A DNA stretch of 64,000 bases, from the NCBI RefSeq assembly GCF_002208135.1, contig NZ_CP021646.1, positions 2,482,001 to 2,546,000 on the forward strand, written 5' to 3'. This document shows positions 18,959 to 64,000 of the stretch, piece by piece (position 1 is the first letter of the stretch; every line of letters starts with the position of its first letter). A model generated the notes under the pieces. That model saw only the letters and a list, made by a program, of their open reading frames with translations. It was not told the origin of the DNA and ran no database searches. The DNA is from Pseudoalteromonas piscicida (GTDB lineage: Bacteria > Pseudomonadota > Gammaproteobacteria > Enterobacterales > Alteromonadaceae). A program made the position numbers and the translations under genes.

Positions 18959-21385
18959 TTAATGTTTTAATGCACGCATTGGTGTCGAGTTTATTAACTG
19001 TTTCATTGGGTAAATCGCCGTAGCTAACGCAAAAGCCAACATGGTAACAATCACCACAAGCAACCAGCTAGATTTTGCCAACAACCAATCTGACGAAACA
19101 CTCATATAAAATCCCGCAACAACCATAATGGCAGCCGACATAGCCACTAGCAAGGGCGCGATGGTATCTGACAATAACAACCGATATAAGCGGTGTCTTT
19201 TGGCACCAAGTGCCATTCGCATCCCAAACTCGTAGCGTCTTTGTTGAAAGCTATAGTTAAGCACGCCATAAATGCCCACCCCAGATAACAACAAAGAAAA
19301 ACCACAAAGCGCAAAGCTTAACAGTAAAGTCAGGCGCTCCAAATAGGTAATGCTCTGATATGTCTTTGTTAAGTTTGAAAAACGCCATATTCCCGCCTGA
19401 CCATTCACGGTGCTGATGGCATTTTGGATCTGAGCGCGAGTAAGTGATGCCCCTTGTTCCATTTCTATCATAAATGGATAACCCAAAGGTAGCGCAGGTA
19501 GCCAAACAGTTTTACCTTGAAGCTCATGATGACGTTTAGGGTGATTGAAGTTTTTTGAAATACCTACGATTTCAGCAGGTGCATCTGGGTTAAAAATAAA
19601 ATACGTTTCACCAATCACATCACCGCCCGGTTTTAACGCCTGTGCCGCAGCTAAAGAAACAATAGCCTCTTCCTTATCGCCTCGAATTGCAGCTTCACTA
19701 AAAGTGCGTCCTGCAACGAGCTCAAGCCCAGTTAAGGCAAAATAATCCGGTCCCACGTTACCTCGAACCATGCTCGGTGTCCATTCACCCGCCATATCCT
19801 GCATAGCAACCACAGGGACATCGCTTTGTAATGGACTTTCTCCATGAGCGACGCCTAACACGCCCGGAATGTTAGTCAGCGCAAGTTGGAATCCTTCGAT
19901 ATTCGCGTAACGCGCGGGAAATGGAGTGGGGTCTGCGGGAATATGTAGCATCACGCTATACATATTGTCCAGCTTTGTTCCGAGCGGTCTAAGCAAGGTA
20001 TCGGCGCTTTTACACAGCACTAAGGTCGCCCCAAGTACCAGCACAGTGGTAAAAAACAGCTGTACCGCAACCAGTGTTTTTGTCGTCGTTGAGCGTATCG
20101 CTTTTACGCTGCCCTTTCCAGACGACTGCATGCTTTGTTTAAGTTGGCTGAAATCAATCATGCGGGAGGTTATAAACGCAAACAGTAAAGCCAATATCAG
20201 TACGGTTAGGATAGCACTGAGCAGCACTGTGGTATCTAAGGTTAAAGTGTCAATCAGCGGCAAATAGCCACTGGTGAGCGATTTAACTAACCTCAGCTCC
20301 CACGCGGCGATAAATAACCCCACCAGCACAGCGCCTGACACCAATAACAGCGCTTCTAGCAAAATTCCACGAAACAACAGCTTACGCTTCGCGCCGAGCA
20401 TAGCTTGTAAGGCCAGTTGCTGCTGGATAGTGTGAGCTCGAGAGATAAACAAATTACTCACATTAAAAATTGCGATGAGTACCAAGCATGCCACACTCAA
20501 CAACACGATAATGGCAAGCTTGCCATGTCCAGCGAGCTCTACGTCACGATATGAACGTACTATAGGCTCAATATCGAGTAACTCTTCGTCGGCCGATTTC
20601 CATTCGCTTTGGTGCACTTGAGCATTTTGATATAGCTGCTCTGCTAGGGTATCCTGATCACTATCGGTGGGTAATATAGCCAGTAACTTCAAGTTATTTA
20701 GTCTGCTACTCCATGGATGATATTCGCCGCGCTGATCACCAAAAAATCGCTCATCTTCAGAAAAACTAAGCCACAGCGCCCCATTTCCTTCACTTAAAAA
20801 GTAAGGATCTACGTGCGTACGCGCAGCAACACCGACGATGGTGTACAGTCTGCCAACAATCCGCAGACTCTCCCCAAGCACGTTGTCATCACCATTGAAG
20901 TATTGTTGCCAAATTTTATAGGAGATAATGATCTCTGGGTTTTTCTGGCTAATGCTTTTCGTCGGCGTTAGATATCGCCCCAGCGCTAGCGGCATTTTCA
21001 CCATACTAAAATAATCCGAACTTGCAAAAGTCAGCGTAAGCTTTGGCTTGCCAGCTAGATTTTCAACCACATCGGAAAAGCTACTGATCAAAGCTCGTTT
21101 TTCATACATGGAGGGGGTCTGATACCAGTTCAGCATGTTTTGAAAGCTCTGCAGCCCTTCAGATGCCCTATCTTGATATACGTTTTTTTGTTCTACCACC
21201 ACAAATCGTGATTCATCTTCAATCTCAAGCGGCTTAATAAAAAAGCCACTAAACAGACTCAATGCGACAAAAAAGCAGCTTAACGCGAGTGCCAACGTCA
21301 GTACTAATGTGATACAAAAATTCGGCACCTGAACCAAACTTTTGATTGCAAGCCCAAGTTGACGCCGCAGTTGCAAAAACCCCAT
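18959..21385 (-). CDS. ABC transporter permease, MacB/FtsX type
   Basis: An 808-residue permease with two FtsX cores. Membrane segments are seen near residues 15-40 (ITLVLTLALALSCFFVALSL), three around 275-420, one near 430-455 (LVAVQLFFTTVLVLGA) and three in the last 130 residues; large periplasmic MacB-PCD domains lie between. Both FtsX domains carry the family turn (LQAMLGAKRKLLFR and FGMRMALGAKRHRLYR). Start ATG 21385 overlaps the ATPase stop (TAATG) with GGAGGTG six bases upstream. It works with the ATPase and HlyD adaptor encoded upstream, probably exporting a peptide or small molecule from the periplasm through an outer-membrane channel encoded elsewhere. Confidence 0.93.
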   Translation of the reverse strand: MGFLQLRRQLGLAIKSLVQVPNFCITLVLTLALALSCFFVALSLFSGFFIKPLEIEDESRFVVVEQKNVYQDRASEGLQSFQNMLNWYQTPSMYEKRALISSFSDVVENLAGKPKLTLTFASSDYFSMVKMPLALGRYLTPTKSISQKNPEIIISYKIWQQYFNGDDNVLGESLRIVGRLYTIVGVAARTHVDPYFLSEGNGALWLSFSEDERFFGDQRGEYHPWSSRLNNLKLLAILPTDSDQDTLAEQLYQNAQVHQSEWKSADEELLDIEPIVRSYRDVELAGHGKLAIIVLLSVACLVLIAIFNVSNLFISRAHTIQQQLALQAMLGAKRKLLFRGILLEALLLVSGAVLVGLFIAAWELRLVKSLTSGYLPLIDTLTLDTTVLLSAILTVLILALLFAFITSRMIDFSQLKQSMQSSGKGSVKAIRSTTTKTLVAVQLFFTTVLVLGATLVLCKSADTLLRPLGTKLDNMYSVMLHIPADPTPFPARYANIEGFQLALTNIPGVLGVAHGESPLQSDVPVVAMQDMAGEWTPSMVRGNVGPDYFALTGLELVAGRTFSEAAIRGDKEEAIVSLAAAQALKPGGDVIGETYFIFNPDAPAEIVGISKNFNHPKRHHELQGKTVWLPALPLGYPFMIEMEQGASLTRAQIQNAISTVNGQAGIWRFSNLTKTYQSITYLERLTLLLSFALCGFSLLLSGVGIYGVLNYSFQQRRYEFGMRMALGAKRHRLYRLLLSDTIAPLLVAMSAAIMVVAGFYMSVSSDWLLAKSSWLLVVIVTMLAFALATAIYPMKQLINSTPMRALKH

Positions 21386-22107
21386 TACACCACCTCCGCA
21401 GCGCAAATATCACGTTTTGCAACGCTTGATGAAACCTGTACACCATCTAAAAGCTGAATTTGCCGCTTGGCATAACCTGCATAGCGAATATCGTGCGTCA
21501 CCATGCAAATGGTTGTGCCTTGACTATTCAACTCCCCCAGCAAGGCCATCACCGCATCACCATTTTTAGAGTCTAGGTTTCCAGTTGGTTCATCGACTAA
21601 TAAGATACTTGGCTCGCCTGCAAGCGCACGCGCAATAGCCACTCGCTGCTGCTGTCCACCAGATAGTTGGTTTGGTTTATGTTTTGCTCGGTGGGACATT
21701 TCAACTTGCTTGAGTGCGCCCATCACGCGGCGTTCAATTTCGTCAGTCGCAAGCGCAGGCTCTCGATATTGAAGCGGTAAAGCCACGTTATCAAATACCG
21801 TTAACCCATCCAGTAGATTAAATGACTGAAAGACAAAACCGATATGCAAATTACGCAGCTCTGCTTGAGTGTCTGCGTCTAGCGTACTGGTTTCTATACC
21901 TTGAATATGATAACTGCCTGACGTGATGTCATCTAACAGTCCAAGAATGCTCAATAAAGTGGATTTTCCCGATCCTGATGGACCGGTTATTGCGACGTAA
22001 TCGCCCTTTTTAATTTCAAGGCTAATGTTACTAATGGCGTGGGTTTCAACATCCTCGCCAAAGAACACTTTGCTCACTTGATGTAATGCCAAAATTGTCT
22101 TGTCCAT
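21385..22107 (-). CDS. ABC transporter ATPase, MacB/LolD type
   Basis: A 240-residue ATPase with Walker [10 protein letters not shown] near residues 39-47, Q-loop [14 protein letters not shown], signature LSGGQQQR, Walker [13 protein letters not shown] and the switch histidine in CMVTHD. It is of the MacB/LolD subfamily that powers FtsX-fold mechanotransmission exporters. It is the second gene of the operon, 11 bases after the adaptor gene, and overlaps the permease gene by the TAATG arrangement. Confidence 0.95.
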
Positions 22108-22118
22108 TTGTTCTTCCT

Positions 22119-23372
22119 TTACCGATTGAGTGATTTAATTGTTATTTTTTCTAGGTGCTGGTAGTCAGACATCTCTGACACCACCACTTGCTCACCGGAT
22201 AAACCGCCTTCGAGTACTTCTATGGCATTGCCGGCTAGTTTACCAAACTTGAAACTTTTTTTGATAAGCATGTTGTTTTGTTTATCTAAAACAAATAATT
22301 GAGTCTGAGATTGTGGAGTTGCACGTGGCGGCTTAATAAGTGAAAGTGCGGTCGTCTTTTTTGCTGTAAAAATTTGCCCTTCAACAGTCAAAAGTGGACG
22401 AGCATTACTTGGCAGCTCTCCAAGTAATGTGAGCTCTATCGCAATACGCCCGTCTTGTACGATGGGCACAATGCGGCTGACCTTAGCCTCCACCTGACCA
22501 ACAAAAGTATCTACTACAGCTCGTTGACCTAAGATAATCTCGCTTGCTTCTCGCTCTGGCACCAGTAAGTCGGCTACCAAAGTTCGCTCACTGCCCACCA
22601 CAGCTAGCGCCTGCCCGCGTGTAATTGCTTGACCTTGACTGACATGTACTTGCTGCAACATGCCGCTGATCCCCGCTGTGACTTGTAATTGCTCCACCGC
22701 TTGAAGCGCAACCTGATAGCTCAGCTCATATTCTTTTAATAGCTCTAGCTCGATCTCAATTCTTTGCTTATGCAATGCACTGGTTTGGCTAAGTTGCTGC
22801 TGAGCGAGCTTTACCCGCTCGCTTAACTGGGCGACCGTTAAGATTGAGCGCTGGTGATCTAAGCTTGAAACTATACCTTGGGTGACTAATTGGCGCTCAG
22901 CCTGCTCTCGTAGTCTGGCGTTTTCAAGCTCACTGCTGAGTAAGGTATTTTGTCCTTTCAATACCAGTAACTCACTTTCTTGGCTTAGCCTCAATGCTTC
23001 AACATTGGCTTTTTGCCTAGCGAGTACCAGTCTTTCTCTATGTAGTTGCTGAGTTAACTCAGGATTGGTTAACTGTAAAATAACAGTGTCTGGTTCTACC
23101 CTGCTGCCTGGAAGATGCAGTACAGTTTCAACTTGAGCTGCAAATGCGGTCGTGATCTCTCTGCTGATCTTAGAGCGTAACCGACCATAGCCTTTAACAC
23201 TAAACTGTATTGGCCCGGATTGGATGGTGGCAAACTTGAGTGTTCCAACATCTAGCTGGCGATTGTTCGGCAAGAACAACATACCAAAGAGTATAATTAG
23301 GGTGACAGTCGCAATTAGTCGCCATCTAAAGGTCTTGGTAGGTGGTTTTGTCAGAGTCGTTTTTATATCCAT
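22119..23372 (-). CDS. HlyD/MacA-family periplasmic adaptor
   Basis: A 417-residue membrane fusion protein: one N-terminal membrane anchor (about 18-36, WRLIATVTLIILFGMLFLP), a lipoyl half-motif (TTAFAAQVETVLHLPGSRVE), a coiled-coil hairpin (about 110-215), the second lipoyl half (QVTAGISGMLQQVHVSQGQ) and beta-barrel domains. It bridges the MacB-type permease to an outer-membrane channel. First gene of a five-gene operon with ATPase, permease, regulator and kinase; a sigma-54 promoter stands about 33-46 bases upstream of the ATG. A degenerate paralogue is at 60.4-61.0 kb. Confidence 0.92.
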   Translation of the reverse strand: MDIKTTLTKPPTKTFRWRLIATVTLIILFGMLFLPNNRQLDVGTLKFATIQSGPIQFSVKGYGRLRSKISREITTAFAAQVETVLHLPGSRVEPDTVILQLTNPELTQQLHRERLVLARQKANVEALRLSQESELLVLKGQNTLLSSELENARLREQAERQLVTQGIVSSLDHQRSILTVAQLSERVKLAQQQLSQTSALHKQRIEIELELLKEYELSYQVALQAVEQLQVTAGISGMLQQVHVSQGQAITRGQALAVVGSERTLVADLLVPEREASEIILGQRAVVDTFVGQVEAKVSRIVPIVQDGRIAIELTLLGELPSNARPLLTVEGQIFTAKKTTALSLIKPPRATPQSQTQLFVLDKQNNMLIKKSFKFGKLAGNAIEVLEGGLSGEQVVVSEMSDYQHLEKITIKSLNR

Positions 23373-48505: not shown

Positions 48506-50640
48506 CTAAAAATCATAGCTAAAACTTAAGCTGTAATTTCTCGGCGCACCATAGCGATACTGATCAAAAAAGCCAATTTGGCTGTAGTACTTTTCATCGA
48601 AGAGGTTTTCTACGTTGAGCTGTAGCGCCATATTGTCTGCCAGAGCGTAGTTTGCCATCAAGCTAACCAGTGCATAAGCATCTTGCTCTAGCCTATCGTT
48701 GCCCGTTACTGAATAAGTGTCATCCTGCCAGTTCACGCCACCGCCAATCGTCAACTCAGGTAAAGCATTCACAAATTGGTAAGTCGTATACAACTTAAAT
48801 TGCTTTCTTGGATTATCCGTATTCACTTCAACGCCGTTGGCATCTTCTGCTTTGTATTGTGAATAACCCAAATGCACATCAAAACCGTCAGTTAACTGAC
48901 CCACCACTTCAAATTCGAAGCCTTTACTGGTTGTGCCTTCAGCAGCATATTGCGCGACTGCATTTACCGACCCAGGAACTATGTATCCAACATCATCTTG
49001 AGCTAGGTTATCTTGTTCGATTTGGAAAATCGCCAATGTTGTTTGCAGCGTGTCGTCTAGATAGGTACTTTTTAGCCCCACTTCGTATGATTTTCCTTTG
49101 ATTGGATCAAGGAAATCACCATTACGGTCTTGGGCATTTTGCGGCTGGAATATTTCAGTGTAACTTGCATACACTCGCTGCGTTGTCGACAAGTCGTACA
49201 AGGCACCAGCGTAAGGTATAAATACGCCATTGTCGCCAAAATCAGTGATGACGCCATAGCTTTCGCCTTCGCGCTGCCAGCTCGATAAACGACCACCCGC
49301 TATTACTTTAAGTTCATCGCTAAGATTTAGCCTTGTTGCGGCGTAAAACCCTTTTTGCTCGGTATCCATATCTTGAGCAACTGAGGTTTCTGTGCCCCAC
49401 GTCGGCTCAGGAAAATTACCATCCCACTCGTAAAAATTGCCAACTGGCAAAAAGGCATTATCGAGCGTAGCGAAAGTGAGTGTATCGGCACTCTGCTCAC
49501 TGTAAAGCGCGCCAGTTACGAATTCATGCTCACGACCGGCGAGTTGATAAAAACCTTTAAGCTGGATATCAAAGCTGTCTTGGTTACTTTCACCTGTACT
49601 TTTATAGGGCCAAGACGCTAAGCCCTCACCTGTTGTTTTATCCAACATGCCGAATAAATACAGCAGCTCTGTATCTTGCTCGTATTTCAGTTTGTTGTAA
49701 TTGGCAACCAGTTCCCAGCCATTTGCAAAGTTGTGGCTAAAGTTCACAAAAGCATTGGTGCCAGTAGTTTGCCACTCTGTCCAATTTGCAGCTGTGGTTT
49801 TTTCGACTTCCCAGTCTGTTTTACTTCCATCGGTAAAGAAAGTAGGTAATGCCCCCAAGTTGGACTGGTAGGGTCGTTACGCTGATAGCTAGCACCAACG
49901 CGGATCGTCGAATGCGTGCTTAAATCCGCTTCTAGTACTCCATAAAGCACGGTACTTTCGTCAGAAAAGAGATCTAAATACGAGTCACCTTCTTCATACT
50001 TCGCCACCACACGTCCACGCACACTGCCATCGTTAGTTAATCCATTGGCAACGTCCACCACCACTTCTTTATTGTTCCAGCTCCCCAAAGAGACACTAGC
50101 AAAACCTGTGAGGTCGGTGCTATTTGCATGTTTGCGTACTAGGTTAATAGAAGCTGAAGGATCGCCCGCGCCGGTCAATAACCCCGTTGCACCACGCACA
50201 AACTCCACGCGCTCGTATATCGCAACATCCGCGATGGTTTCACCAGAATCACCCGCCAAACTCCATGACAAAGGAACGCCGTCAATTTGATAATTGGTAA
50301 TGTCAAAGCCACGTGACTGCAACGTATTACGAACATTATCAACTTCTTTCGCTGACACCCCAATCGCATTTAACACTGTGTCGGTCAACGTATCGAGCTT
50401 TTGCTCTTTGATCCGTGCAGCGGTAATAACGCTAACAGATTGCGGCGTCTCAAGAAGAGATAACCCTAAACCAGTTGCGGTGTCTATCACTTCATTGACG
50501 GTGTATTTTCCCGTCACAACTATTTTTTCAATTTCTTCATTATCTTGCTGTGCTGCTTGCACCTGTAATGCTGACGTGCCGAGCGCTGCCATAACAGCAA
50601 ATGAGAGCGTTTTGAGAGGCAGAGTGTTCACTGGGTTCAT
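48506..50640 (-). pseudogene. TonB-dependent siderophore receptor (FhuE/FpvA-like), frame broken at a G5 run
   Basis: Two frames make one receptor. The first, from ATG 50640 (MNPVNTLPLKTLSF), has a signal peptide, a TonB box-like KIVVTGKY and the plug with LLETPQSVSVITAARI and FVRGATGLLTGAGDPSASIN. The second encodes the barrel up to the terminal YGAPRNYSLSFSYDF. They meet at C5 on the top strand, 49852-49856: one more G on the coding strand gives SPTWGALPTFFTDGSKTDW and a continuous 711-residue protein, the normal length. The family imports ferric siderophores. A Fur box stands 40-50 bases before the start. Frame loss is probably a sequencing error shared with two other genes here, or phase variation. 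Confidence 0.85.
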
Positions 50641-50677
50641 CCTAATATTGTAAAAATTGAAACGATAATAATGCAGA

Positions 50678-50692
50678 TGATAACCATTAGCA
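50678..50692. promoter_or_regulatory. Fur box upstream of siderophore receptor
   Basis: TGATAACCATTAGCA on the top strand matches the 7-1-7 Fur consensus TGATAATNATTATCA at 12 of 14 informative positions. It lies 38 bases before the receptor start, in the intergenic region shared with the divergent PepSY gene. Confidence 0.75.
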
Positions 50693-50958
50693 ATAACATT
50701 AAGATGAATTACAACCAGTTTCGCGCCCGATTTAAGGAACGTTCCCAAAAACAGTAACCAACTAATTTAAAACAACTTTCCTATAAATAAAACAAGCAGT
50801 ATAAACCGCTAAACAAATAAAACATGCCATTTAACGCACATCCAAATGAATATAATTGCCATTTACACTTTTAAAAAGATATACTTTATTTACATTTTTG
50901 CGCAAATACTCCCTTAGCTTTAATTTGTCGCCGTCATTCAAAGAACTAGGAACACATA

Positions 50959-52655: not shown

Positions 52656-52822
52656 ATTATACCAGTTGTATTAAGTAAATGATCTATCTTGAAGCGGGGA
52701 AATAGCTTTAGTAGCAAGGCAAAAATTTTGCTATTTAGTTGTTCTAAATGAGAAATTTTTAACGAAGCTAATATACTATTTCACCCTTCAAATTGATTAG
52801 AGAGTTAATTCAATTGGTATTA
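52656..52822. repeat. Dispersed repeat, copy B with terminal inverted ends
   Basis: About 167 non-coding bases related to the block at 28769-28929. The left end ATACCAGTTGTATTAA is an imperfect inverted copy of the right end TTAATTCAATTGGTAT, and the middle is locally palindromic (GCAAAAATTTTGC). The right end supplies the stop codon of the gamma-glutamyltranspeptidase gene. The shape is that of a miniature inverted-repeat element. Confidence 0.7.
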
Positions 52823-54568
52823 GTACCCCACCGCAGCGCTGTCGGCTCGCCTTGGATCTGAGGAGCCAAATAGACCTTTATCGGTAAGCATGATCGACTG
52901 GGTTGAGCCCATCGCATTCTGCTCTGAAAGTGTGTGTCCTTTGTTTTCAAGTAGACGTCGAGTATCCACATTTAAGCTACGTTCAATACGAATTTCATCT
53001 GGTAACCATTGGTGGTGAATACGCGGAGCCACGGTTGCTTCAGCGACGTTCAAGCCATGATCAATAACATTCATTATGATTTGCAGCGTGGTGGTGATAA
53101 TGCGTGAGCCTCCGGGGCTACCCGTTACCAAAAAGGGTTTACCCTCTTTCATTACAATCGTAGGTGTCATCGAACTCAGCGGGCGCTTCTTGCCTTCAAC
53201 AGCGTTAGCTTCGCCACCAACCAAGCCAAAACCGTTTGGTGTGCCGGGCTTTGCCGAGAAATCATCCATTTCATTGTTAAGTAGAATACCAGTGCCAGCC
53301 GCGACAATACCTGAGCCATAGCTAAAGTTAAGCGTGTAAGTGTTACTCACTGCATTGCCCCACTTATCAACCACAGAATAATGCGTGGTTTGATTACTCT
53401 CATAAGGTAATAATTTACCGGGCTTAATCTCGCCGCTTGGCGTCGCTTTGTCTGCGTTTATTTGCTTACTACGCTGTTTTGCATATTGCTTATCCACCAG
53501 TGCTTTAACGGGTACATCGTAGAAATCGGGGTCGCCCAAATATTCACTGCGGTCAGCATATGCACGTTTCATGACTTCAGCCATTAAATGGACGGTAGCA
53601 GCGCTATTATGCCCAAGCTCACCAATAGGATATTGCTCCAGCATATTCAGCATTTCTATGATATGCACACCACCCGATGAAGGTGGTGGCATAGAAACTA
53701 TCTCATAGCCACGATATGTGCCTTTTACCGGCTCTCGCTCCACCGCTTTATAGTTTTTTAAGTCATCTAGCGACATAATGCCACCAGCCGCTTCTACCGC
53801 CGCAACAATTTTCTTTGCTGTCTCGCCCTCATAAAAGCCCGCGCTGCCTTTTTCGGCAACGAGTTCCAAAGAATGAGCCAAGTCAGTCTGCACCAGCCAT
53901 TCATTTGGCTTGTAGCTGCTACCATCTTTTTTATAAAACACAGCCTTAGATGCCGGCACACCGAGCATTCGTTTTTTGATATAGCTATGAGAAAGCGAAT
54001 TAGCTAAATCAGAGGTCACTTTTATGCCGTCACTTGCTAATTTAATTGCAGGCTGAATAACTTGGTTAAGTGTCATGGTGCCGTATTTTTCGAGTGCTAA
54101 CTCCATCCCCATAACCGTTCCGGGAACGCCCACGGCAAGGCCGTGCTGAAGGCTTAACTTTGGGTTTACTTCACCATTTTCATCAATAAAAATATCTTTG
54201 TGCGCACGGCTAGGCGCCATTTCGCGATAATCAATCGCAACGGTTTTATTCTCTTTTGCCAGATGCACTAGCATAAAGCCACCGCCGCCGATATTTCCGG
54301 CCCTTGGCAAAGTCACGGCAAGACTAAAACCTACTGCAACAGCCGCATCAACGGCATTGCCACCTTGCTTTAAAATCTCTACCCCAACCTGGCTGGCAAG
54401 TGCTTCTTGGCTTGATACCATGCCGTGTTCAGCCCATATTGGCTGTGCTGTGGCTTTAGAACTAAATATTGGTGACTCGTCAGCTTGCGCCGTGTTACCA
54501 AGCGCAACACCCACGCTCAAGGAAACAGAGCAAGACCACACCAAGGCTATTAATTTACGCATCTTCAT
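52820..54568 (-). CDS. ggt: Gamma-glutamyltranspeptidase
   Basis: A 582-residue periplasmic enzyme, made as a proenzyme that cleaves itself at a threonine to large and small subunits. The cleavage and catalytic Thr is in NQTTHYSVVDKWGNAVSNTY near residue 395. Other signs are the signal peptide (1-29, ALGNTAQA), GNIGGGGFMLVHL, PPPSSGGVHIIEML, and the oxyanion pair in TGSPGGSRI. It hydrolyses glutathione and other gamma-glutamyl compounds. Single gene; its stop codon lies in a dispersed repeat. Confidence 0.95.
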   Translation of the reverse strand: MKMRKLIALVWSCSVSLSVGVALGNTAQADESPIFSSKATAQPIWAEHGMVSSQEALASQVGVEILKQGGNAVDAAVAVGFSLAVTLPRAGNIGGGGFMLVHLAKENKTVAIDYREMAPSRAHKDIFIDENGEVNPKLSLQHGLAVGVPGTVMGMELALEKYGTMTLNQVIQPAIKLASDGIKVTSDLANSLSHSYIKKRMLGVPASKAVFYKKDGSSYKPNEWLVQTDLAHSLELVAEKGSAGFYEGETAKKIVAAVEAAGGIMSLDDLKNYKAVEREPVKGTYRGYEIVSMPPPSSGGVHIIEMLNMLEQYPIGELGHNSAATVHLMAEVMKRAYADRSEYLGDPDFYDVPVKALVDKQYAKQRSKQINADKATPSGEIKPGKLLPYESNQTTHYSVVDKWGNAVSNTYTLNFSYGSGIVAAGTGILLNNEMDDFSAKPGTPNGFGLVGGEANAVEGKKRPLSSMTPTIVMKEGKPFLVTGSPGGSRIITTTLQIIMNVIDHGLNVAEATVAPRIHHQWLPDEIRIERSLNVDTRRLLENKGHTLSEQNAMGSTQSIMLTDKGLFGSSDPRRADSAAVGY

Positions 54569-54866
54569 CCCGCTTTTTAATTATTCTCATGGTGCAGTGT
54601 TGCATGAATAAAAAGACCAAACAATGTCGATGCGTTGGGCGACCGACATTGCAAATATACGTCACACCATAGTTGCTAAACTCGCGGCTAGAGAGCAGCT
54701 TGTCGTCCAACATTGAAGTTACAAAAGGTTGAAATAAGGTAATTTCATAAAACAAGAAATTTAACCTTTCAAAAACATATTTGACAAATATTTTATATTG
54801 GGTACAGTCAATAATGTAGTTTATTTTCTGTACGACAATTAAAGCTTTCACAATAAGGAAAATAAG
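54569..54866. promoter_or_regulatory. Upstream region of the double-glycine peptide genes
   Basis: TTGACA (54781-54786) and TACAGT (54803-54808) with a 16-base spacer form a plausible sigma-70 promoter about 55 bases before the first peptide gene. Further upstream CAATGTCG (54623-54630) and CGACATTG (54645-54652) form an eight-base hairpin of unknown meaning, possibly an operator for the divergent transpeptidase gene or the peptides. Confidence 0.5.
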
Positions 54867-55049
54867 ATGAAGTTAACGCTAACAAAAAGAAACATAAAAC
54901 AACTTAACCGCACTGCAGGCTTGGAAAAATCCCAAACACCGAACGTCGCAGGTGGTTATGTAACAGCAGGTTGCGACAGAGAAATAACCGAGTTATGCAA
55001 CACAAAAGCATTTGGTTCTTGCTATAACTGCGGTTCCCTGCGCTGTTAA
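54867..55049 (+). CDS. Small Cys-rich peptide with double-glycine leader, 1
   Basis: A 60-residue peptide. The N-terminal 20 residues (MKLTLTKRNIKQLNRTAGLE) are basic and resemble leader sequences of ribosomally made natural products; SQTPNVAGG then ends in a double glycine at residues 29-30. The remaining 30 residues start YVTAGCDREI and carry five cysteines, the last at the C-terminus. AAGGAAAAT lies seven bases before the ATG. The next gene encodes a similar peptide 31 bases later, and a strong terminator closes the pair. Interpretation as a bacteriocin-like or modified peptide precursor is inference: no maturation or export enzyme is adjacent, but a C39-type exporter could be elsewhere. 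Confidence 0.75.
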   Translation: MKLTLTKRNIKQLNRTAGLEKSQTPNVAGGYVTAGCDREITELCNTKAFGSCYNCGSLRC

Positions 55050-55080
55050 TACGCTTTCTATAACCCAAAGGAAATGAAAA

Positions 55081-55293
55081 ATGAAAATTAAATTGAATAA
55101 AAAGCCGCTTAAAAACTTAAATAATGCTCAAGCAATTACGCCGCAAGCGACTCCTCAAATTGGTGGTGGTGTAAACCGTTTGACAGAGTTAGATTGTGTG
55201 CCGACTAACCGCCACGATTGCCGTACAGGTGCTATCTCTTGTTACGGTGATCACGATTGTGCATTCACTAATAGACAGTATATGTGCGATTAA
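55081..55293 (+). CDS. Small Cys-rich peptide with double-glycine leader, 2
   Basis: A 70-residue peptide whose leader MKIKLNKKPLKNLNNAQAIT parallels that of the preceding gene, with TPQIGGG ending at residues 28-30 in the place of TPNVAGG. The putative core (VNRLTELDCVPTNRHDC onwards) has five cysteines at DC, DC, SC, DC and MC, spaced differently from peptide 1, and ends MCD. So leaders are conserved and cores diverged, the usual sign of processed peptide families. AAAGGAAATG precedes the ATG. Function unknown. Confidence 0.75.
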   Translation: MKIKLNKKPLKNLNNAQAITPQATPQIGGGVNRLTELDCVPTNRHDCRTGAISCYGDHDCAFTNRQYMCD

Positions 55294-55300
55294 TCCTTTT

Positions 55301-55324
55301 TAGGCCCGTACTCGGGCCTATTTT
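55301..55324 (+). terminator. Strong intrinsic terminator of peptide operon
   Basis: TAGGCCCG (55301-55308) and CGGGCCTA (55313-55320) form a perfect eight-base stem with loop TACT followed by TTTT, eight bases after the second peptide stop codon. Confidence 0.9.
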
Positions 55325-55338
55325 GAAGTCTCACCTGA

Positions 55339-55956
55339 TTAAAACACCAATCCTAGCTCACGCAACTCGCGCTCAGCCTGAGCCGCATTAAAGAACTGAA
55401 TGCCATGTAACCCAACCTGCTTTGCTCCTTCAACGTTCACTAATACATCATCGAGAAAAACACAGTCACCTGCCTCCAGTTGGTAGCGCTCCAGTAAGTG
55501 AGTAAAAATAGCTTTGCCGGGCTTCATACAACCAAGCTCGGCAGAGATAGTTTCACCATCAAAGTGTTGCCAGAAAGTATGACGTGCTTTTAGGTGGCTC
55601 ACAATCTCGTGCACATTATCGGTTAGGGCATAAGCGCTATATCCAGCCGTCTTTAGGCGCTGCATAAGTGAAAGCGTACCATACAGTGGGATCAATGATT
55701 CTTTGATATAGAAGAACAGTTCGTCAGCTTGATCAGAGGTTAAGTGACAGATTCGCATAAAAGCCTGCTTAGTTTCTGCTTCAGTCAGTTCACCTCGGTT
55801 GATAGCAAACCAAATCTCGCTGTGGAACAGCTGCTTGGCTAGACTCTCAACATCGCAGTGATTACCAAAGGTAAGCCGGACTATCTCCTCTGGCGACCAC
55901 CTGACAAATACGTTACCCACGTCAAAAATGACGTGCTTAATATTACAAGTTGCCAT
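55339..55956 (-). CDS. HAD-superfamily hydrolase, YihX-like
   Basis: A 205-residue phosphatase-like HAD protein. Motif I is VIFDVGNVFVRW near residue 9, with the second Asp replaced by Asn-neighbouring Gly as in YihX (FDLGNV). Motif II is ALTDN near 115, the Lys is in GCMKPGKAIF near 145 and motif IV is VFLDDVLVNVEGA near 168. Relatives act on sugar phosphates such as glucose 1-phosphate. Single gene, convergent with the peptide operon. Confidence 0.88.
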   Translation of the reverse strand: MATCNIKHVIFDVGNVFVRWSPEEIVRLTFGNHCDVESLAKQLFHSEIWFAINRGELTEAETKQAFMRICHLTSDQADELFFYIKESLIPLYGTLSLMQRLKTAGYSAYALTDNVHEIVSHLKARHTFWQHFDGETISAELGCMKPGKAIFTHLLERYQLEAGDCVFLDDVLVNVEGAKQVGLHGIQFFNAAQAERELRELGLVF

Positions 55957-60370: not shown

Positions 60371-61735
60371 ATGGATATACAAGTCGAACATAAAAAGCGC
60401 AACAAGGTTAAACTGGTTGTGGGCTGTTGGCGGAACCGTTTTCGCCGTAGTTATTATATGGCTGCTAATACAACCCTCAGCGCAGGCATCTTTGCCTATG
60501 GCAAAAACATGGATTGCGGAGGTACAGCAAGGGGATTTAGAGGTCAGTGTATCTGGATATGGTCAGCTTAAACCGAAAACGCCGCGTTTGATAAGTGCCG
60601 CAAGCGATGCCACGGTTGAAGAAATTGTGTTACGCCCTGGTGCACAAGTTAACCCCGACAGCATCATCATGAGGCTACAAGATGCAAATTTGGCCTACTC
60701 TTTAAAAGATGCCAAACGCAGTTTGGCGCAATTGCAAGACCACTATCTACAGCTCGATATCAATCAACAAAGAGAACTGCTGTCTCATCAGGCGGATCTG
60801 GAAATTCTGAGATCTGAGTTAGAAAGTGCCGAGCTGGAGGTTAGCGCTCAAGGAGAATTGGTTGAAGATGGAGTTGTTTCTAAACTCGACTACCAACGCG
60901 CGGTACTTACCCATCGCCAGCTTAAGCGTCACATTAATATTGAACAACAGCGAATATCACAATTACAGACCTTACACAAAGCCAACCTACAGCTTGCGCA
61001 GTCGAATATTGATGCCAGAAATTGGCGCTTTAACCACCCTACTCTAGGTGATGAATGGCAGCTTCGCTATAGCGAACTTACCATTGCAGGCATGCAGGCA
61101 CACTTGGTGATCCTGACCGATGTGCAAGCGGTTGTCAGTCAAGTTCAGCGCGACGCTTGGCAAAAAATGATTAGAATACTCAGCCACGAGATTCATAATT
61201 CTCTCTCGCCGATTTTGAACAAGCGCTTGGCGTAATTGTGCAGCGCAGCGATGGCCTGATGTCCTTTGTTAATCGCTATGCAAGCGCTGCAAAACAGCAT
61301 CAACTTCATATAGAAGCGATATCCATAAATGACTTACTAACGCCGCTCGTAGGGCTTTTCGACAATCGCGTGAGATTAACCATTGCACAGGACTTTACGC
61401 TGCAAATTGATCAAAGCTTACTTGAGCAAGCACTTGTAAATCTGATTAAAAATGCCTTGGAAGCTGGAGGTGAGAGCAGTGCTGTTTGCGTCAACGCATA
61501 TCACAATCATAAATTTACAGGTATTGAAGTACTCGATGATGGTCATGGAATATAGAATGCAGACAACCTATTCGTACCTTTTTATACCACCAAAACAACG
61601 GGTAAAGGGGTTGGTCTCATCTTAGCTAAAAATATCGTTGAACAGCATAACGGAAAACTGAGCTTAACCAATCGTAAGGATGCACAGGGCGCAATTGCTC
61701 ATATTCAGCTTCCACTGATGGCAGCGAATAGGTGA
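60371..61735 (+). pseudogene. Chimeric remnant: HlyD adaptor N-terminus fused to histidine kinase C-terminus
   Basis: The first 570 bases encode a degenerate HlyD adaptor (start MDIQVEHKKRNKVKLVV, one-base shift near 60.42 kb, then VFAVVIIWLLIQPSAQ, VSVSGYGQLKPKTPRL and the coiled coil to LAQSNIDA). At about 61,018 it switches without gap to the catalytic half of a kinase (RNWRFNHPTLGDEWQLRY, IRILSHEIHNSLSPI). A short deletion and frame change follows at 61.21 kb, then FEQALGVIVQRSDGLMSFVN, N-box LVNLIKNALEAGG, DDGHGI, an in-frame TAG at 61,553, and FVPFYTTKTTGKGVGLILAK. The same gene types begin and end the operon at 16-23 kb, so ATPase, permease and regulator genes were lost between them. 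Confidence 0.85.
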
Positions 61736-61891: not shown

Positions 61892-62971
61892 TTAACCGAT
61901 TAACTTTGATCCCTCGTAAAAGTGCTGCCGATGCTCCAGATAACGCATCCACACTCTATCCATTTGCGACTGATATAGTTTTGCGCCATGTTTGTAATCT
62001 ATGCCGTGCAACAGCAGCATATCCGCAAGTTGCATGCTGCTGGTCATGGCGTGCAACATGCCTTGCGAAGAGAGTGGATCAAAGCTCATGCTCGCATCAC
62101 CTACCGCATACCAGTCTTTTGCTGCGCAACTATCCAAACGGGCCGAATTTGCACTTACCATTGGATGCAGGTGTGCTGTTTCTATATTCACCAAGTCCAC
62201 TAAGGTGTTAAATCCCCTCACCTGCTTTACTTTGGCTAAAAAATCTCGAGCGTTGGTGATGTTGCACTTTTTGATCGCATCAGCGCAAGCCTGCCAAGAA
62301 AACACCCGAGGCTGCATATTGGGGTCGAGTGAAGAGCATGCCGCGCTCGGCGCACTATACCACCAGCCATTTTCTTCATCGCTTATTACTGCAAACTGTT
62401 TCGTAGTGGCAACCTCTGCGGTAAGCCACAGTGCCATTTGCTTATCAAACTGTTGTAGTTTTGCACCGAGTCGCCTCGCCAGATGACAGGCGCGACCGGT
62501 GGCATCAATAAGCAGTGTTGTTGTGATAGACATGTCAGTGTCGCAACCTTCAACCCTAACTTGCCAACTTGATTGTGTTTGCACCACATCAGTAAGCTTT
62601 GTGGACGATAGCAAAGGAATACCACGAAGCACTAATTGATCACGAAGCTGCTGTTCAAAATGCTGCCGATGAATGTGCCACCCCAAACCATCGGGGTTTT
62701 TAACGTTATCCACTATGGTAGGCGATTCACTGCCCCAAAACGAAATCATACCGTGGCAAGTGAGATGTTCAGGGCTTTGTAGTAAGTGTAACAAGTTAAG
62801 CTTTTTGAGAATTCTAGACGCCGCTGGCGGTAAACACTCGCCCACTTTGTCTTTAGCTGCGGCGAGCTTATCGACTACTATCACCTGATAGTGAGGATGC
62901 AAAGCAAGTGCAGCAATGCATCCCGCAATACCCGCACCTACAATCACAATATCCGATTTCCTTTCAGCCAT
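61892..62971 (-). CDS. LodB-like FAD-dependent oxidoreductase (quinone cofactor maturation)
   Basis: A 359-residue flavoprotein of the tryptophan-halogenase-like group. The dinucleotide-binding motif IVIVGAGIAGCIAAL is at the N-terminus, then CLPPAASRIL near 48, ATGRACHLARRLGAK near 160, and the second FAD motif WYAVGDASMSFDPLSSQGM near 290. LodB and GoxB are needed to form the cysteine tryptophylquinone of their oxidase partners; here the oxidase gene lies eight bases upstream in the same direction, so that role is very likely. After the stop the same frame stays open for 40 codons (to 61,769), ending TIAAGRQLIAMLNMSE; its meaning is unclear. Confidence 0.9.
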   Translation of the reverse strand: MAERKSDIVIVGAGIAGCIAALALHPHYQVIVVDKLAAAKDKVGECLPPAASRILKKLNLLHLLQSPEHLTCHGMISFWGSESPTIVDNVKNPDGLGWHIHRQHFEQQLRDQLVLRGIPLLSSTKLTDVVQTQSSWQVRVEGCDTDMSITTTLLIDATGRACHLARRLGAKLQQFDKQMALWLTAEVATTKQFAVISDEENGWWYSAPSAACSSLDPNMQPRVFSWQACADAIKKCNITNARDFLAKVKQVRGFNTLVDLVNIETAHLHPMVSANSARLDSCAAKDWYAVGDASMSFDPLSSQGMLHAMTSSMQLADMLLLHGIDYKHGAKLYQSQMDRVWMRYLEHRQHFYEGSKLIG

Positions 62972-62979
62972 ATTAGCCC

Positions 62980-64000
62980 TTATTGTTTGCGATTCCGGCG
63001 ATGTGCTTTGTCGGTTTGTGACAAATCAGGGCGACAATCTCGCTTGCTTTCATTACGACTTGCTGTCAACAGTTTTTCCGCTTTGGCTGGTGTTAATCCC
63101 ACTTGCATGGTGGTTGGAAAACCAGTTACGCCTTTTTCTGTCTTCGGTAACACCACCGCCAATTGACCAAACCCAGTGATCATACTGTTGATCTGCTCAA
63201 TATAGTTGGTTGAAGGGCCTATCGGTAAATCGTTTAGCCACAGCTCCCTGTCATTAAATGCTGCTTGTCGCTCTGCAAATGGCTTAGTTTCATCGACTAC
63301 CCGGTGATAATTTTGCTCGCTAAGCATATTATTTGGCACTCGTGCAGGCCAAAAGGTCGGTAAATAAGGGTCGTACGCTTCATTGTAGCCATCGCGACAA
63401 CTCGCGGTGTCGGTTTGCCAAGGAATGGCCATCCAACGCGTAATGCCACCAGCAACCTGCCCCGTTTTTAATGGGCCGCTTGAATGCAGCGCGATTTCTG
63501 ATGTCATTTCCACGCCATAATTGGTGCCGTGGGTCGGTGCAGTATCTTCTGCATGCTTAAGACGGAAAGCCTCGCTATACATGCCCGCTGTACGCATTGG
63601 CCAAGTCATTTCACATCCAGGGTGGAAAGCATCCGCTAAACAGAACTCCATCGCCGCCTTAGTTAACATCTCAGGCTGCTCAGCAACTGGTATTTCATCA
63701 ATGCTGGTTGGGGGCGATAACAAGGGTCGTAATCAGAATCAAACTCGCCATTCGACCACTGCTGTAACATATTCAACTGAATTTCTGTGAGGGTAACAAA
63801 CTGCCTTGGCGAGTCATCGGCATCTACACTCATCGCATCGCCATACAACCAAGGCCACAACTGCGGTGCGGTAGCGGCAAATTGAGGATCCCAACTGTGT
63901 TTTTCATCCGCCGTGGTGACTTTTTCTACCTGTCTAAAGTTATTAAAGAGATTACGTCTTGCTTCTTGCCATGTGCGTGAGTTGTCATTTAAACGGCTGA
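62980..64000 (-). pseudogene. LodA/GoxA-family CTQ-dependent oxidase, partial, frame broken at a C5/G5 run
   Basis: The C-terminal third of a LodA-type oxidase; the start lies beyond the window. The cofactor residues are present: Cys in DAFHPGCEMTWPMR and Trp in MAIPWQTDTASC, exactly 65 residues apart, as between Cys516 and Trp581 of the Marinomonas enzyme (from memory). The frame breaks at the G5 run 63710-63714 of the top strand: one more C on the coding strand joins DSDYDPCYRP to PTSIDEIPVAEQP. The family oxidises lysine, glycine or other amines and releases hydrogen peroxide with antibacterial effect. Followed after eight bases by the LodB-like gene. Loss of frame is probably a read error. 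Confidence 0.88.

Follow-up and report, generated by a model that had tools for sequence, protein, structure and literature searches.

Among lanthipeptide enzymes whose natural substrates are scattered and number in the tens, the best known is of class II (ProcM/SyncM). In marine picocyanobacteria its products are the prochlorosins, with as many as 83 putative precursors in a single strain (PMC10783134) and 79–83 precursors per strain in the available text of two reports (PMC9872173, PMC10783134). As given in the accessible parts of the literature, one synthetase serves precursors that share a leader but differ in their cores, and many are encoded at a distance from the enzyme gene (PMC10783134, PMC9872173, PMC7268733). 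One mining study was restricted, according to the part of its text available, to seven genes up- or downstream of a LanC-domain gene (PMC7268733).

Class I lanthipeptides have been described from Pseudoalteromonas and Thalassomonas, in sources that were available in part. PciA of P. citrea has been expressed as a class I lanthipeptide and its gene cluster shown (PMC9993889), pseudorosins A–C come from P. flavipulchra S16 (PMC12819058), and a class I cluster is reported in P. viridis (PMC11015633). The title of a 2023 paper on Pseudoalteromonas class I lanthipeptides names a dethiolation activity of PsfB. The precursors of thalassomonasins A/B and of the viridisins are placed inside the gene cluster in the accessible text, which gives the thalassomonasin leaders a length of 29 residues (PMC11433236).

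The two genes considered here, pep1 and pep2, lie in a 64,000-nucleotide stretch of the Pseudoalteromonas piscicida genome (the window, meaning the whole of the DNA analysed). They are very likely class I lanthipeptide precursors that are matured in trans by remote LanB and LanC enzymes. It is also probable, though less firmly so, that one LanB and one LanC serve dozens of unlike, genome-dispersed precursors in a prochlorosin-like manner, that about half of the Pseudoalteromonas species sampled, as well as Thalassomonas, have such a system, and that the cores are held by purifying selection (two were tested). Most such precursors would then be missed by cluster-based mining.

The family shares its genera and its LanB/LanC type with the published class I lanthipeptides, and its leaders have 28–31 residues against the 29 given for the thalassomonasins. 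Whereas the thalassomonasin and viridisin precursors are in-cluster in the available text, the window pair lies 1.52 Mb from LanB along contig C1 (taken as circular) and is one of 15 dispersed loci. By eye, the pep1 and pep2 cores are unlike the LanB-neighbouring cores of P. flavipulchra. In strain NCIMB 2033 of that species, three leader ORFs with Cys lie no more than 10 kb from LanB, and a guess is that these may be the pseudorosin genes. A literature search for dispersed class I precursors in Pseudoalteromonas and Thalassomonas found no report, and a prior report is possible. Published work already covers LanB-linked lanthipeptides from these genera, of which the dispersed organisation with class I enzymes would be a variant. 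The suggestion in the original prediction that the family might be undescribed is therefore to be narrowed: judging by the accessible text of the published work, it is not wholly undescribed.

The likeness to prochlorosins lies in the many dispersed precursors per enzyme, both in the P. piscicida genome (17 matches, 15 loci, one LanB) and in a second genome, G176. In contrast to the bifunctional class II LanM of the prochlorosins, LanB and LanC are separate here; prochlorosin leaders are of the Nif11 type, whereas the pep1 and pep2 leaders gave no Pfam match and hence none to Nif11. Also unlike the prochlorosins, the family is found with a C39-ABC exporter and an HlyD partner, in Gammaproteobacteria. 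A GG leader and a C39-ABC plus HlyD exporter are features of the class II microcins, or double-glycine peptides. The pair resembles these in its GG leaders and in the C39-ABC exporter of its genome (export being predicted) but differs in that leader presence follows LanB and not C39.

The pep1/pep2 pair and its leader family

The features of the pair are as follows.

54781–54808, +: promoter-like TTGACA-16-TACAGT, no more frequent than expected by chance (2 seen against 2.1)
54855–54860, +: AAGGAA ribosome-binding site of pep1, read in the sequence
54867–55049, +: pep1 precursor gene, 60 aa, a leader-family member by profile searches
54867–54956, +: leader of pep1 (30 aa), with TPNVAGG at its end; matches the LanB-neighbouring leader profile at E 2.8e-9
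54957–55046, +: pep1 core, 30 aa, 5 Cys; pN/pS 0.023
55068–55073, +: AAGGAA ribosome-binding site of pep2, read in the sequence
55081–55293, +: pep2 precursor gene, 70 aa
55081–55170, +: leader of pep2 (30 aa), with TPQIGGG at its end; matches the LanB-neighbouring leader profile at E 1.5e-8
55171–55290, +: pep2 core, 40 aa, 5 Cys; pN/pS 0.031
55301–55320, +: 8-bp GC-rich hairpin 3′ of pep2, followed by TTTT, a possible weak terminator

The two small cysteine-rich ORFs proposed at 54867–55324 are indeed present there, with GG leaders and five Cys in each core, next to several Ser/Thr. They lie on the same strand with a gap of 31 bases. On one side stands a gamma-glutamyltransferase (GGT) gene (52820–54568, −) and on the other a HAD-hydrolase gene (55339–55956, −). 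No maturase gene adjoins the pair, and the absence of an adjacent modification enzyme or C39 exporter was correctly noted at the outset, the LanB, LanC and C39 genes of the genome being about 1.5 Mb away. The promoter that had been assigned to the pair does not rise above chance. The strong terminator is borne out in part: the hairpin is strong, the folded stretch 55285–55335 reaching −17.1 kcal/mol (z −3.9), but only four T stand behind it and a terminator scan around the pair called none. Neither peptide matched Pfam. NCBIfam held nothing relevant for them, the sole pep1 match (E 0.15) being a transporter protein that was disregarded, and Rfam gave nothing useful on the region.

With pep2 as the query, the 5.3-Mb genome yields 12 matches at E≤10, pep2 itself counted. 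A profile of 12 leaders, the window leaders among them, gives 20 matches at E≤10, of which 17 are at E≤0.001. Counting matches separated by more than 5 kb as distinct loci, the 17 occupy 15, all on contig C1, and just two of the matches lie within 10 kb of LanB. The alike leaders and diverged cores that had been pointed out in the pair thus recur through the genome: the leaders follow the consensus MKLxLxKKxIKxLS...TPxVAGG and the cores are unlike one another. Judged by eye, 12 of the 17 look intact, each with at least three core Cys behind a GG leader. Of the other five, L026 has a stop within the leader, the core of L014 appears frame-shifted, L027, near LanB, has a core without Cys, and L028 and L029 are without the GG end. 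A degenerate DNA pattern for the leader gave zero matches in the same genome, and protein profiles were used instead.

A protein search with the leader family returned 51 proteins at E≤1. Many are nameless; those with readable names are mostly hypothetical proteins of Pseudoalteromonas, with one from Thalassomonas, and a single homologue is labelled ‘Bacteriocin’ in UniRef. The protein nearest to pep2 is a 70-aa protein of Pseudoalteromonas sp. CO348. When 36 precursors were examined for a common upstream control motif, AAGGAA emerged, present within 200 bp upstream in 26 of them against a shuffle maximum of 18. As this is the ribosome-binding signal, common regulation of the 36 is not demonstrated by the search.

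Co-occurrence of the leader with LanB

Among 108 genomes of the genus, the leader (E≤0.001) is found in 51 and PF04738 in 51, and these are the identical genomes; 57 have neither (Fisher’s exact p 4.7e-32, relatedness of the genomes being ignored). In a sample of 118 genomes from the family, the leader (E≤0.01) occurs in 15 and PF14028 in 19, including all 15. The LanB frame measures 1040–1128 aa in 14 of the 15 leader-positive genomes and is in two short pieces in G040, while the leader-less genomes with PF14028 (G037, G044, G082 and G116) have frames of just 325–454 aa. The sole leader match of G040, like that of G042, contains a stop. In the order sample (295 genomes), the leader is present in four, and PF04738 in the same four plus G333, where a partial match falls in an 832-aa frame; LanB is split across two contigs in G312. 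Leader and LanB are both present and both absent within single genera of the family sample, the genus of the window included, which speaks against explaining the co-occurrence by a single shared ancestor alone. The counts are non-independent because the genomes are related.

The proposal of processed precursors relying on enzymes encoded elsewhere is supported by this pattern, the leader tracking LanB in every sample searched. The lack of homologous leaders that had been named as a refutation did not occur, since such leaders are present in many related genomes. Linked maturases and C39 transporters, likewise suggested as a check, are found in genomes with few copies of the leader: in G017, G063, G042, G110 and G096 the precursors adjoin LanC-, LanB-, HlyD- and C39-ABC-like genes. 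Pfam domains bear out all four assignments in G017 and those of LanC, LanB and C39 in G096.

Copy number is high in much of the genus. There are at least 1312 leader matches across the 51 genomes, from 1 to at least 74 per genome with a median of at least 21, and at least 29 of the 51 genomes carry 20 or more; for some genomes of the genus and order samples the counts per genome are lower bounds. G176 has 62 leader matches at 47 loci and one LanB. Eighteen of these matches are on its contig C1 and 44 on C2; the closest to LanB is about 29 kb off, with none within 28 kb. More than one PF04738 entry was seen in four of the 51 genomes, as a second full copy in G137 and G191 and as weak extras in G147 and G165.

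At LanB loci of named genomes, at least one leader is found in the flank (up to 10 kb, shorter in some) in 26 of 38 cases. From such LanB-neighbouring leaders of other genomes, 26 (E≤1e-6, fitting a regular expression) were reduced to 23 distinct ones, and their profile was run against the 1405 ORFs of the window. It picks out only pep1 and pep2, the next-best ORF having an E of 1.3; this test is mildly dependent, because the profile that found those leaders (A3) had the window leaders among its 30 rows.

These distributions bear on whether LanB acts on the pair at all. GG leaders, five Cys in each core and a C39-HlyD exporter in the genome would also suit unmodified double-glycine peptides of the class II microcin type, cut and exported by C39 and folded through disulfides, with LanB serving its neighbours only, and a C39 match is indeed present in all 15 leader-positive genomes of the family sample. 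However, C39 occurs in 89 of the 118 genomes of that sample and the leader in 15, every one with LanB, so that the exporter does not account for the distribution of the leader. The leaders of remote and LanB-neighbouring precursors form one family. Furthermore, 12 of the 38 named LanB loci are without a precursor in the flank examined (flanks being clipped in some), and if the peptides were unmodified such LanBs would have no substrates. Five Cys per core would also be ill-suited to pure disulfide folding. Unmodified peptides are therefore considered improbable.

Remote enzymes, exporter and proposed maturation

The single full-length LanB of the genome is encoded at C1:4057788–4060916 (L079:4788–7916, −). 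Its domain match (PF04738 and PF14028) spans C1:4057812–4060799 in an open frame of 1045 aa. LanC adjoins it at C1:4060926–4062131 (L079:7926–9131, −). At C1:4062362 a precursor with Cys is oriented divergently from LanC; the precursor near LanB at C1:4055240 has no Cys. This LanB shares 95–96% identity with the LanBs of Pseudoalteromonas sp. HM-SA03 and P. flavipulchra (96% in the best segment for strain NCIMB 2033). In the PDB set it matches 9g04 (5.8e-55; a thiopeptide-type bacteriocin biosynthesis protein), 5ehk and NisB; 9g04 and 5ehk are presumably MadB and MibB. LanC matches 8byk and NisC with WCYG, CHG and AHG aligned, the Cys and Cys-His positions of NisC aligning with WCYG and CHG. 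WCYG and CHG would provide the metal ligands of the cyclase.

A C39-ABC exporter with an HlyD partner is encoded at C1:4070697–4074097 (L134), about 9 kb past LanC. The C39-ABC protein, encoded at C1:4070697–4072835, matches 4ry2, an ABC-type bacteriocin transporter (1.4e-107) that we take to be PCAT1. Compared with the LanB-linked pair of G017, C39 is 66% and HlyD 44% identical. In G018 (L137), LanB, LanC, C39 and HlyD are contiguous, whereas in the P. piscicida genome other genes lie in between. Beside LanC there is also a 130-aa ORF (L079:9614–10006, −), the second half of which resembles the C-terminal end of the C39-ABC exporter. This resemblance suggests that a rearrangement parted the exporter from LanB and LanC.

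The export route first considered for the pair was an HlyD/MacB exporter within the window. The MacB-type exporter, named by eye at about 18959–23372, is not needed and was set aside, since the genome has a C39 exporter related by homology to those linked to LanB. Another C39-ABC gene, again with an HlyD partner, is found at L135:4008–7480 (G000:C1:4096008–4099480), with a leader-like ORF without GG nearby at C1:4100636; it is perhaps a separate peptide export system.

From these gene contents a maturation route may be proposed, in which the leader acts as a tag that very probably directs both peptides to one distant set of ring-forming enzymes. The conserved 30-residue leader would be recognised by the genome's only LanB, which would dehydrate Ser/Thr of the core. 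LanC would then join Cys thiols to the dehydrated residues to form (methyl)lanthionine rings. Together with HlyD, the C39-peptidase ABC exporter would cleave after GG and export the core. The same LanB/LanC set would serve at least 12, and perhaps up to 17, scattered precursors in this genome, and dozens in many relatives. The product would most plausibly be a secreted antagonistic or signalling peptide.

The exact final modification could differ from rings because of the dethiolation activity named in the PsfB title. If LanB acted and no ring formed, the product would be linear, for instance dehydrated or Cys-dethiolated. That 2023 title, which concerns a dehydratase, is the point in favour of such an outcome. 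However, a LanC with metal-site motifs adjoins LanB in this genome, and a review describes the Thalassomonas relatives as ring peptides in the portion available (PMC11433236). A linear product is accordingly judged quite unlikely, and ring-bearing lanthipeptides are preferred.

Core composition, selection and significance

From 106 sequences, 59 of them obtained via a regular expression, 69 non-redundant cores were retained (<60% identity, ≥15 aa). Their median composition is 32 aa with 4 Cys and 5 Ser/Thr, and 65 of the 69 have at least two Cys. Relative to full shuffles, Ser/Thr is enriched three residues before Cys (81 vs 45.5) and five before (76 vs 42.5). The strongest spacing is downstream, C-x-Ser/Thr, with Ser/Thr two after Cys (91 vs 47.3). 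Depletion is seen two before Cys (29 vs 47.2), directly after it (27 vs 48.9) and five to seven after. The enrichments at −3, −5 and +2 persist in shuffles with Cys held fixed, with z of 4.3, 5.0 and 8.0, values that overstate independence because the cores are related to one another. No excess of Ser/Thr upstream over downstream of Cys exceeds the Cys-fixed shuffles (288 vs 230, p 0.49). The spacing suits small rings and is compatible with them, without proving them.

Genes matching pep2 (E≤1e-15) are present in 13 of the 108 genus genomes, that of the window included. Next to the 12 other pep2-like loci, where alone pep1 was sought, it was found in five. Selection was estimated in six of the 13 genomes, the rest differing in length, being without pep1 nearby or not having been extracted. 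From summed pairwise counts, pN/pS is 0.023 in the core and 0.155 in the leader of pep1, and 0.031 in the core and 0.022 in the leader of pep2. For the pep1 core this corresponds to 5 replacement against 60 synonymous summed differences, the sequences being short and the changes few. Both cores are under strong purifying selection, and their low pN/pS points to fixed products and not to fast-changing ones. In more distant copies, the pep2 core pattern DC-PTNR-DC..TG..SC...DC-FTNR...CD is kept in four of five, three of these being identical, and is partial in the fifth (L144). The GGT-pair-HAD order is kept in five close genomes; in the more distant G212, the stretch examined shows a pep2 relative next to GGT but neither pep1 nor HAD. 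It is scarcely credible that both genes are decaying remnants, without a role today, of an earlier expansion of precursors. Signs of such decay might be the broken-looking L014 and L026 and internal stops in two of the 13 pep2-like genes, but core pN/pS of 0.02–0.03 among six genomes, intact frames and kept synteny speak against it.

If the class I reading of the family is true, it would supply a LanB/LanC pair from nature that accepts a very broad range of substrates, and would allow one to test directly how a leader alone can direct unlike cores. It would also mean that many peptides of common marine bacteria, probably secreted, have so far gone unseen (at least 1312 matches in 51 genomes). 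The dispersed organisation suggests that mining limited to LanC neighbourhoods undercounts such families.

Three other features of the window may be recorded. At 48506–50748 (−), a TonB-dependent receptor is in two overlapping frames, with the plug at 49744–50748 and the barrel at 48506–49858; the split is a frameshift in the gene or in the assembly. Short ORFs at 60417–61555 (+) read by eye as part of an HlyD-type protein that continues into parts of a histidine kinase; the first has no Pfam match and the second a partial HATPase match. They are possibly a deletion remnant. At 61892–63723 (−), a flavoprotein with Trp_halogenase and FAD_binding_3 matches adjoins an ORF with a LodA_C domain, the two resembling an amino-acid oxidase pair.
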